A stretch of 40,375 bases of DNA from Pseudobdellovibrionaceae bacterium (lineage in GTDB: Bacteria > Bdellovibrionota > Bdellovibrionia > Bdellovibrionales > Bdellovibrionaceae): NCBI GenBank assembly GCA_021731025.1, contig JAKFYD010000053.1:1-40375 (forward strand). Direction: 5' to 3'. Each line of letters begins with the position of its first letter. Within the stretch, counting starts at the first letter, position 1. The notes under the pieces are model-generated. The model was not told the DNA's origin and made no database searches. It saw only the letters and a program-made list of their open reading frames with translations. Shown here in pieces: positions 18,693 to 22,128 of the stretch. Position numbers and translations under genes: made by a program.

Positions 18693-19247
18693 TTACGACG
18701 TCAAGATTCCCATCACTTCACTTTCGCGAAGGAGAATCAGTGTTTCACCTAACAAATCGATCTTTGATCCTGCATACTCTGCAAAGACCACTTTGTCTCC
18801 TATTTGCACATCCATTGGTCTAATTTTTCCGTGAGCATCACGATGTCCTCGTCCAACTGCAACTGCGACCCCTTGTTTATTACCCGTCACATCAGATGCC
18901 GTATCGGGAATATACAAACCCCCCGCTGTTCTTTTCTCGCCTTCAATGATTTGCACCATCAAACGATCATCCAGCGGAGTCACAAATTCATTCCATTTCA
19001 CGGAAGACTTTTTAGAAGCCTTCGGTGAAGCCAACTTCATCGATGTCGTCGAAGTTGTTTTTTTTGTTTTGGCTTTCGCTTTAACAGCTGGCGCTTTTTT
19101 TGCGGCTTTTTTAACAGAGGGCGAGGGCTTTTTAGCGGCGCGAGCTGAAACTTTTTTCACAACTGATTTCTTCGCAGGAGTTTTTTTCTTTGCAGCCGCT
19201 TTTTTAACTTTCTTACCTTTGGCCACGCTTGCCCCTTTCTTCTTCAT
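18693..19247 (-). CDS. GroES-like (Cpn10) protein with histone H1-like lysine/alanine-rich N-terminal tail
   Basis: A 184-residue protein in two parts. Residues 1 to about 84 are an extremely basic Lys/Ala/Pro/Ser tail with units such as AKKKTPAKKS, AKKPSPSVKKAAKK and APAVKAKAKTKK, like histone H1 or bacterial H1-like proteins. Residues about 88-183 form a complete GroES fold: VTPLDDRLMVQ, mobile-loop AGGLYIPDTAS, KQGVAVAVGRG, MDVQIGDKVVFAEYAGSKI and LILLRESEVMGIL. I start at the ATG at 19247; an upstream in-frame ATG at 19295 would add 16 non-tail residues and increase overlap with the preceding gene. No groEL is adjacent. It could be a nucleoid- or RNA-associated co-chaperonin; that is inference. 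Confidence 0.85.
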   Translation of the reverse strand: MKKKGASVAKGKKVKKAAAKKKTPAKKSVVKKVSARAAKKPSPSVKKAAKKAPAVKAKAKTKKTTSTTSMKLASPKASKKSSVKWNEFVTPLDDRLMVQIIEGEKRTAGGLYIPDTASDVTGNKQGVAVAVGRGHRDAHGKIRPMDVQIGDKVVFAEYAGSKIDLLGETLILLRESEVMGILTS

Positions 19248-19488
19248 AATATTTTTTGTACAAAATATCCCATTCTGGCGTGTTTTCCAGGACATTTCTT
19301 TTCAACGAAGCCACTTTTTCTCGAGCTCGTCGATCAATTTCTTCATCTTCAGCCACAAAATCAGCAATGGCTCTTTTGGCTGCGCGCAAAGCGTGATCAT
19401 CGTCACTGAAATCCACGATGTCATCGCCCCACACGGCATCTGTCACTAAGTGGGCCCAGTGGCTTTGGCGATCTTCCGACAAAATCAC
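19213..19488 (-). CDS. DUF507-type protein, C-terminal-half homologue
   Basis: A 91-residue soluble, acidic protein of unknown function. The segment DFVAEDEEIDRRAREKVASL followed by ENTPEWDILYKKYYEEERGK matches what I recall of the second half of DUF507 proteins (IDREAR...L...G...Y). Its ATG overlaps the stop of the 92-residue partner by four bases, and its 3' end overlaps the start chosen for the GroES-like gene by 35 bases. In many related bacteria DUF507 is a single protein of about 175-185 residues, so here the family appears as two separately encoded halves. No membrane segment or signal peptide. Confidence 0.68.
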   Translation of the reverse strand: MILSEDRQSHWAHLVTDAVWGDDIVDFSDDDHALRAAKRAIADFVAEDEEIDRRAREKVASLKRNVLENTPEWDILYKKYYEEERGKRGQR

Positions 19489-19763
19489 AGAATCACCTTC
19501 TTTTCTTTAGCAATTTTTTTCTTCAAAATAGGGTACATCTTATAGCGCTGGAATTCACCAGGATTGCTGCGTTCGAGCTCATCCAGCATGCGATTCACTT
19601 CACGCTCAAGATCCTGTTCTTTTTGCAGATCTTTTTTCAATTCTTCAATCATGCGAGCGAGAACTTTTTTCTCTTCGACCTTAAAAGTAATTAAGTTTTG
19701 TTTTTTCCATTGATCTAAAACTTTTTGTGCGATCACTTCAATTTGAAGCTGAGTCAATTTCAT
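19485..19763 (-). CDS. DUF507-type protein, N-terminal-half homologue
   Basis: A 92-residue charged helical protein starting MKLTQLQIEVIAQKVLDQW, like the beginning of DUF507 proteins. The Leu/Glu/Lys-rich centre (ARMIEELKKDLQKEQDLERE) probably forms a coiled coil. It is first in the operon with its 91-residue partner (ATGA overlap), the GroES-like gene and the porin-like gene. Only 34 bases separate its start from the divergent penicillin-binding protein gene, so their promoters must overlap or lie in coding DNA. A GAGGA site stands 11 bases from the ATG. Function unknown. Confidence 0.7.
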   Translation of the reverse strand: MKLTQLQIEVIAQKVLDQWKKQNLITFKVEEKKVLARMIEELKKDLQKEQDLEREVNRMLDELERSNPGEFQRYKMYPILKKKIAKEKKVIL

Positions 19764-19797: not shown

Positions 19798-22128
19798 ATG
19801 TTACGAAAACGATTAAAGACTATTTTACTGGTGTTTACAACACTTCTGACGCTAATGATCATCGTGGGTGTGGTGTCCTTCCTGAGTTTCAAGAAGGAGC
19901 TGTCAGAAAAGCTCGAAGCAAAAAAATACATTTTACCAACCGAATATTACGCAGCACCCGTCAGTTTTAAAGCAAAAATGCTCTATTCACGAGAAGCTGT
20001 CGAAGATCTTCTCTTAAAAAGAAATTATCGCCGCCGCAACATTCAGCAAAGTCTTTTACCAGGCGATTTTTTGACGGGCCAACCCATTGAATGTGCCACT
20101 CGCATGCAGGTGGAAATCCCTGACACCACCAGTGGCTGTCTTGGCTTTTCCATCAAGGAAAATTCAGAAATCACGGCTGGAGCACATCTCGAAGATACCA
20201 TTGATAAAAATATCCAATGGATTCTTTTTACTGAAAACACATCGATACTTTCTGTTCATCTAGGAATTCCGGCGCGCACGACGGTCGATGTTTCCCTTCG
20301 CCCTCCCCTACTTGCTCAATACATTGGCAATATTCCCGTCATGCAAGAAGCCGTTAATATCAGCCAAATTCCTCCGGCCTGCCTGAACGCGGTGATGGCT
20401 ATTGAAGACACTCAGTTTTTAGAGCACAGCGGTTTTAGTTTCACGGGATTAGTTCGAGCTTTTATCAAAAATGTTACAGGTGGACGTCGTCAAGGCGGAA
20501 GCACTATCACTCAACAGTTAGTTAAAAATTACTTTCTGAGCAGCGAGCGAACTTACAAAAGAAAAATTAACGAATTATTTTTTTCCATACTTCTTGAGTC
20601 AAAATTTGATAAAGACCAAATTTTGGAAATGTACGTCAACATTATTTACATGGGACAGAATGGTCCCTTCCAAGTGATCGGATTTCCAGCGGCTTCTCAA
20701 TATTATTTTCAAAAGGCGGTCTCGGACCTCAATCTGTCCGAGTGCGCGACTTTAGCCGCTATCCTGAATGGGCCCGGAGTTTACGATCCCTTTCGAAAAC
20801 CCGATAAAGCCATAGCTCGTCGCAATTTAGTTTTAGAAAAAATGAAGGAACTTAAATTTATTTCTGAATTTGAGTTCACAGCTGCGACTCAAATTGCTCT
20901 TCCAACTAAAGCTGCGGCGAAAGCTTCGGAAACCGCTCCCTATTTTATTGATGCCGTCAGAAAGCAACTCAGGGATTTAAAAATGTCGGGCGAGGGCGCA
21001 AAAATCTACACCAGCTTGGATCTCGAAGCTCAGCAAGAAGCTCAACACGCTTTGCAAAGTCATCTGAATAATTTAGAAAAAAACGTTAAAAGTATAAAAC
21101 TAAAAAAAGAAAAGGGTCATCATCTTGAAGGGGTGGTTCTTTCAGGAGACGCCGAGACCGGCTTGATCAGCGTTGTCGTGGGGGGACGGTCTTTCCGCAT
21201 GACTCAATTTAATCGAGCCCTTGATGGTCACCGACAAGTGGGTTCCATCATGAAACCTTTCGTTTACTTGACCGCTCTTTCCCAGCAAGAAAATGAAAAT
21301 AAAAATTTTAGCCCAACCAGTTTACTGAATGATGAAAAATTCGAAATTAAATATGAAGGCCAAAAATGGGCCCCAGAAAATTACACTCAAAAATTTTACG
21401 GCTTTGTCCCTATGTTTTACGCTTTAAAAAATAGTTTGAACGCTTCAACGGCTTCGTTGGGATTAAAAGTTGGATTAGATAAAATCATCACGACCGCAAA
21501 TACGCTGGGTTTGCAATCTCCCATGAAAGCTTTGCCTTCTTTGGTTCTTGGTTCTTTTGAAATGTATCCGAAAGAAGTTCTGCAAGCCTACATGACAATC
21601 ACAAACTTGGGACAAAAACCAAATTTAAGTTTTATCCGCAAAGTTGTTGATGCGGACGGAAAAGATGTTTTCGAACATGTTCCCCAAAGGACACCCGTCT
21701 ATGATCCTATCGATACAGCGGTGTTGGTGGGAATGATGAAGCAAACTGTTCTTACAGGAACAGCTCGTGCCGTCACTCTCAGTGGGTTTACTCATCCCGC
21801 CGCTGGAAAAACGGGAACCACTAGTGATTATAAAGATGCATGGTTCGTTGGATTCACTCCTCACTTAACGACTCTGGTGTGGGTCGGTTACGATGGCAAT
21901 GAACCGACCCGACTCACAGGGGGAAGTGGTGCCGTTCCGGTGTGGGTGCAATTCATGAAAAAGACCGCTACGGTTTATCCCGCCGAAGATTTCAGTTGGC
22001 CCGAAGGAACAGTGAAAATGACTTTATCTCCGGAACAACTTGAAAAAATAGGTGCAGTTAAAGAAGAGGAAGATCGTCAGCCCATCGAATTGATTTTTAG
22101 ACAAGGCACTGAACCTAGCGATTTATAA
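19798..22128 (+). CDS. mrcB: Class A penicillin-binding protein (PBP1b-like, bifunctional)
   Basis: Peptidoglycan polymerase and cross-linker of 776 residues. A short cytoplasmic end and one transmembrane helix (about 9-30) precede a UB2H-like region (about 45-140). The GT51 glycosyltransferase domain has catalytic Glu203 in MAIEDTQFLEHSGFS, GGSTITQQLVKNYFL, KRKINELFFSILLE and the second Glu in ILEMYVNIIYMGQ. The transpeptidase domain has Ser483-x-x-Lys486 (GSIMKPF), Ser546-Leu-Asn548 and Lys671-Thr-Gly (KTGTTSDYKDAW). Domain order is that of PBP1b. No ribosome site is visible; the message is probably leaderless. The 3' end overlaps the convergent MBL gene by six bases. Symbol given by resemblance to mrcB/ponB. 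Confidence 0.92.
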   Translation: MLRKRLKTILLVFTTLLTLMIIVGVVSFLSFKKELSEKLEAKKYILPTEYYAAPVSFKAKMLYSREAVEDLLLKRNYRRRNIQQSLLPGDFLTGQPIECATRMQVEIPDTTSGCLGFSIKENSEITAGAHLEDTIDKNIQWILFTENTSILSVHLGIPARTTVDVSLRPPLLAQYIGNIPVMQEAVNISQIPPACLNAVMAIEDTQFLEHSGFSFTGLVRAFIKNVTGGRRQGGSTITQQLVKNYFLSSERTYKRKINELFFSILLESKFDKDQILEMYVNIIYMGQNGPFQVIGFPAASQYYFQKAVSDLNLSECATLAAILNGPGVYDPFRKPDKAIARRNLVLEKMKELKFISEFEFTAATQIALPTKAAAKASETAPYFIDAVRKQLRDLKMSGEGAKIYTSLDLEAQQEAQHALQSHLNNLEKNVKSIKLKKEKGHHLEGVVLSGDAETGLISVVVGGRSFRMTQFNRALDGHRQVGSIMKPFVYLTALSQQENENKNFSPTSLLNDEKFEIKYEGQKWAPENYTQKFYGFVPMFYALKNSLNASTASLGLKVGLDKIITTANTLGLQSPMKALPSLVLGSFEMYPKEVLQAYMTITNLGQKPNLSFIRKVVDADGKDVFEHVPQRTPVYDPIDTAVLVGMMKQTVLTGTARAVTLSGFTHPAAGKTGTTSDYKDAWFVGFTPHLTTLVWVGYDGNEPTRLTGGSGAVPVWVQFMKKTATVYPAEDFSWPEGTVKMTLSPEQLEKIGAVKEEEDRQPIELIFRQGTEPSDL

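Follow-up and report, generated by a model that had tools for sequence, protein, structure and literature searches.

The window, by which we mean the whole stretch of 40,375 nucleotides analysed here from a Pseudobdellovibrionaceae bacterium, carries on its minus strand a gene, groES2, whose sequence in the interval 18693-19247 encodes a Lys/Ala-rich N-terminal region and, behind it, a complete Cpn10 domain. The gene belongs to a gene order that is conserved across families. A divergent penicillin-binding protein gene (PBP; Transgly plus Transpeptidase; 19798..22128, plus strand) forms the conserved border of the locus, followed on the minus strand by a pair of DUF507 genes (DUF507a, 19485..19763, and DUF507b, 19213..19488, corresponding to the N-terminal and C-terminal halves of PF04368), by groES2 itself and, 10 nt after it, by a gene for an outer-membrane-type protein weakly like TIGR04551 (17201..18682). 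The latter is found downstream of groES2 and on the same strand in 70/70 loci where it was detected. DUF507, the structure of which has been solved (PMC10439177), is a single family of 182 positions that most loci of the order encode as two overlapping genes. The pair precedes groES2 in the window's genome but is absent from the groES2 locus in the genus that holds B. bacteriovorus HD100. Several genomes of the order that do not have groES2 keep the rest of the locus, DUF507b then mostly standing directly ahead of the outer-membrane-type gene. groES2 is a cassette that can be gained or lost independently of its neighbours, which weakens the case for a direct dependence between them, and because it is missing from several genomes it has been dispensable over evolution.

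The initial annotation read the protein from the entire open frame 18693-19247, with a tail of about 84 residues. This frame is indeed open upstream as far as an ATG at 19247 (184 aa from there), although the coding sequence probably begins seven codons further in, at a GTG at 19226 on the minus strand, and spans 18693..19226 (177 aa, tail of about 77 residues, TAA stop at 18693-18695). We prefer this start because relatives share a V/M-A beginning at this point (mostly V/M-A-K), because it is preceded by a Shine-Dalgarno-like sequence, AAGAAAGGGG (19232..19241, minus strand), lying within the DUF507b coding sequence, and because of the overlap with DUF507b. In the window the end of DUF507b, stop codon included, shares 14 nt with the beginning of groES2, and 39 of the 42 DUF507b-bearing loci show an overlap of 8-17 nt.

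The polycationic tail (residues 1-77; 18996..19226, minus strand) consists mainly of Lys, Ala, Ser, Thr and Val. It contains 36% Lys and 22% Ala, has a net charge of +28 and has no Asp or Glu among the 74 residues measured. Tails of 72 distinct relatives range in length from 41 to 208 residues, with 26-58% K/R, 0-4% D/E and a net charge of +17 to +99 (family median +35), so that composition and charge are conserved, and exact sequence and length vary. In an AlphaFold monomer model of the 177-aa form the window's tail has low pLDDT and no secondary structure. The segment is thus disordered, acid-poor and rich in Lys and Ala in the manner of histone H1 and AlgP-like tails, though Pro makes up only about 7%; the Lys/Ala/Pro repeats of the initial annotation are better described as a Lys/Ala-rich stretch. 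This likeness to histone H1 and AlgP is one of composition only, in low-complexity sequence. When used alone as a query against the window's genome the tail retrieved its own locus only, no other protein there sharing it as a domain. The linker that joins tail and domain (18972-18998, minus strand) is well conserved, reading hydrophobic-D-[LWF]-S-x-F-V-T-P in many relatives; it is unlike canonical GroES and may pack against either the ring or GroEL.

The Cpn10/GroES domain (residues 81-177; 18696..18986, minus strand), which had been recognised as a complete co-chaperonin domain at the outset, begins with a conserved entry motif, xxFVTPLDDR. It matches PF00166 with 83.6 bits (E 1e-23, residues 89-181 of the 184-residue form; curated cut-off 21.1). 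The NCBIfam GroES models score lower relative to their thresholds, the best reaching 89.4 bits against a cut-off of 133 and 15/15 matching models falling under their own cut-off. The best matches in a PDB sequence search are co-chaperonins, with Cpn23 at the top. The AlphaFold monomer comprises the disordered tail and a Cpn10 barrel (domain pLDDT about 90 over the last 60 residues), and its best structural matches in the PDB are Cpn10 structures, as expected of the GroES beta-barrel fold. The core of the GroEL-binding mobile loop, RTAGGLYIPDT (residues 99-109; 18900..18932, minus strand), aligns to residues 20-30 of E. coli GroES and contains, in TAGGLYIPD, both the Gly-Gly and the hydrophobic tripeptide. 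Across the tail family the tripeptide at positions 25-27 is hydrophobic in 72/72 and GG is present at 23-24 in 65/72. Of the 10-residue windows sampled in the domain, just 1.2% match this conservation.

Comparison of the domains of the 72 tail proteins with those of 30 plain GroES proteins from the same order revealed a second distinguishing feature in the dome (roof) beta-hairpin, GRGHRDAHGKIRPMD (residues 125-139; 18810..18854, minus strand), which in the established GroES structure sits at the top of the dome. This hairpin is basic in the tail family, with a mean net charge of +3.25 (minimum +2) versus -0.20 (maximum 0) in plain GroES, the two ranges being disjoint. Positions 50 and 51, which are Glu/Asp in the plain form (E50/D51), are both K/R in 59/72 tail proteins versus 0/30 plain ones. 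The window's own hairpin is an exception in detail, having A50 and H51, and is net positive through R45, R48, K53 and R55.

A doubt raised with the initial annotation was that translation might begin downstream of the tail. Lambert et al. 2012 re-annotated the groES2 gene of HD100, bd3349, from 224 to 117 aa, its first part being repetitive (PMC3464611). We take our locus L099 to be bd3349, since it yields 224 aa when read from the GTG of VKGLF and has a Met at bp 322 that leaves 117 aa, reproducing the published figures. If that re-annotation held generally, groES2 would be an ordinary second GroES beginning at the Met beside the domain, and the repetitive nature of the tail sequence would fit. 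We regard this as very improbable. The tail frame is open in 72 distinct orthologues, and a Shine-Dalgarno-like motif precedes the upstream start in 67/72 (looser motif) or 59/72 (strict); at internal in-frame start codons the corresponding figures are 22/304 and 3/304. Close pairs give dN/dS of 0.08-0.35 in the tail versus 0.03-0.12 in the domain, the higher values being rough owing to protein-guided alignment and saturation at larger distances. Recurrence of the open frame and composition, together with these tail values, excludes chance as the origin of the frame. In DNA alignments of six pairs, built without protein guidance, tail substitutions clearly concentrate at third positions in most pairs (18/23 in the closest) and gaps are mostly multiples of three; the exceptions are one pair with an out-of-phase stretch and one with little third-position excess. 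Finally, in locus L088 a 30-nt in-frame deletion removes the published internal Met from a protein whose domain is 99% identical. The conserved start signal, the purifying selection and this loss of Met contradict an internal start with an untranslated tail; to the extent that comparison can tell, the tail is both translated and under purifying selection. The published re-annotation would thereby be corrected, the 117-aa form of Bd3349 omitting the part that sets the protein apart.

The window's genome contains two Cpn10 genes and one GroEL. A normal GroES, directly followed by the sole GroEL, is located on contig C24, in agreement with the earlier observation that no GroEL adjoins groES2; the separate groES-groEL operon that the initial annotation suggested looking for is therefore present. 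This second Cpn10 gene also rules out groES2 as the only GroES of the genome, which had been named, in combination with a poorly conserved tail, as an outcome that would speak against a special role. GroEL was found in 37 of the 40 nearest genomes, usually as one full copy adjoining canonical GroES, and neither there nor in the window's genome did we find a second, dedicated GroEL as a regular feature (none in the latter). With one GroEL, placed beside the canonical GroES, groES2 has no GroEL of its own. Near a canonical groES-groEL operon, L001:275-547 (minus strand) encodes a Lys-rich protein of 90 aa whose start resembles a signal peptide. One genome of the order (G027, 2.1 Mb, 99% complete) has no GroES or GroEL match at the thresholds used, possibly through chaperonin loss or an assembly gap.

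Fusions of a tail to GroES in related bacteria, which the initial annotation had proposed searching for, are represented by the 72 distinct relatives. The order is represented by 104 genomes with a completeness of at least 90%, of which 82 have two Cpn10 matches, 21 have one and 1 has none. Where there are two, the additional match is as a rule the tailed protein, not every case having been read; tail-GroES proteins occur in most genomes sampled from the order. Within the window's own family all genomes at least 90% complete have two Cpn10 matches except G004 and G011. In the tree the tail proteins group as a single clade (support 0.957), and the plain GroES sequences of the order and class fall outside it. 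An alignment-based search of genome contigs returned 22 loci, nearly all from Bdellovibrio or its family or order. No tail-GroES was seen in 24 genomes of the phylum outside the order, mostly picked for extra or long Cpn10 frames, which have the plain domain only (0/24). Searches of phages and plasmids gave matches to the Cpn10 domain only, none covering 80% of the query, and none of the five viral Cpn10 matches read, out of 33, has a lysine tail.

On the sequence evidence groES2 is a second co-chaperonin of Bdellovibrio's order and the orthologue of B. bacteriovorus groES2 (Bd3349). In B. bacteriovorus this gene is transcribed only 2-4 h into predation, its transcript is de-repressed in the absence of the sigma factor Bd0743, and the GroEL-contact residues of its product are mostly kept (PMC3464611). 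On balance we think it probable that the protein is a late-expressed alternative lid for GroEL that uses its seven tails and basic dome to fix the chamber to a polyanion, likeliest nucleoid DNA or RNA. Seven GroES2 subunits, assuming by homology a GroES-type ring, would cap the cell's only GroEL late in the predatory cycle, replacing GroES1, and seven tails (+28 each here) together with seven basic dome hairpins would hold the chamber on nucleoid DNA or RNA/polysomes most likely, or possibly on polyphosphate or membrane. The cell would then have an alternative folding chamber that is anchored in space and confined to one stage. By analogy, the mode would be that of PhaF and AlgP, in which a KPAA-type tail tethers an unrelated module to the nucleoid, the module here being a chaperonin lid. 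The nucleoid is favoured as partner for two reasons: KPAA tails in AlgP and PhaF either bind DNA or hold granules at the nucleoid (PMC9239181), and the nucleoids of the predator become compact again before or at septation (PMC11318664), when groES2 is on. Counting against an anchored lid are the drifting tail, the A50/H51 exception, the genomes that do not have groES2, and a model that is of the monomer only with poor confidence in the tail.

The initial annotation offered two functions, a link between protein folding and the nucleoid and an architectural protein using the ring as a scaffold. The former, widened to other polyanions, appears the better, since few stretches are conserved as well as the mobile loop and the cell does have one GroEL. 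In the scaffold alternative, which we consider rather unlikely, the ring would serve only to multiply an H1-like tail and aid nucleoid recompaction before septation, GroEL not being a partner. The H1-like composition, the basic dome and the coincidence of late orthologue expression with pre-septation chromosome recompaction (PMC11318664) would all suit such a protein, but the mobile loop would be useless to it, and the main text of a B. bacteriovorus nucleoid study does not name GroES2, though the cells studied were in attack phase, when its expression is low. Drift in the sequence and length of the tail means that any polyanion, such as polyphosphate or membrane lipid, would fit, and an alternative lid might bind through its tail a non-nucleic partner: polyphosphate, the anionic inner membrane in connection with envelope-protein secretion, or GroEL itself, tuning the chamber. 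The similar tail of AlgP sits on polyphosphate granules (PMC9239181), and groES2 is constantly associated with the outer-membrane protein and PBP genes. This neighbourhood may, however, be merely inherited, DUF507 and the outer-membrane-type gene being kept together in loci without groES2 and hence independent of it, and the tail contains no known membrane or polyphosphate motif; we hold such a partner to be unlikely. The same drift would be expected of a mere solubility or charge appendage with no specific partner, an explanation to which we give very little weight given selection on the tail, the near absence of acidic residues across the order and the parallel switch of the dome to basic.

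A more particular form of the anchored lid, a folding chamber tethered to the chromosome by chromatin-type lid tails and switched on when predator filaments divide, is put forward tentatively. If true, it would to our knowledge be the first example of GroEL being spatially addressed via a co-chaperonin. The usual view of co-chaperonins is that of simple lids with little variation between bacteria. In the present case an entire bacterial order retains, for a single GroEL, another lid that is equipped with a polycationic anchor and a basic dome, and if this anchor binds DNA or RNA, bacteria can position chaperonins through the lid.

The gene was already known, and its tail had been seen and dismissed: GroES2/Bd3349 of B. 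bacteriovorus HD100 is an orthologue in which the tail, coding and selected according to the present comparison, was discarded (PMC3464611). Beyond Lambert et al. 2012 the open literature, which most subscription journals lie outside, held only an apparently unrelated mention of Bd3349 and nothing relevant on a GroES with a lysine-rich or H1-like extension. Canonical GroES/Cpn10 proteins (PF00166; E. coli GroES, Thermus Cpn10 1wnr, H. thermoluteolus GroES 8wuc) are alike throughout the domain, mobile loop and fold. In contrast to them, groES2 has a polycationic N-terminal tail, a basic roof hairpin, a DDR entry motif (canonical HDR) and an operon without groEL, and scores below the curated cut-off of every matching NCBIfam GroES model. 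AlgP and PhaF of Pseudomonas (PMC9239181), for which a nucleoid-tethering model exists, similarly combine a functional domain of unrelated type with a long, disordered Lys/Ala tail; the tail of AlgP differs in being C-terminal, with regular KPAA repeats, on a granule-associated domain, and no homology is claimed. Phage T4 Gp31, an alternative lid for host GroEL, offers a functional analogy (named in PMC3464611). Its structure (1g31) is a weak structural match only (E 0.016, 9% identity). We know of no lysine tail in Gp31. The chloroplast proteins Cpn20/Cpn23 (7ekq) are likewise enlarged members of the Cpn10 family, but the enlargement is by a second Cpn10 domain rather than a basic tail.
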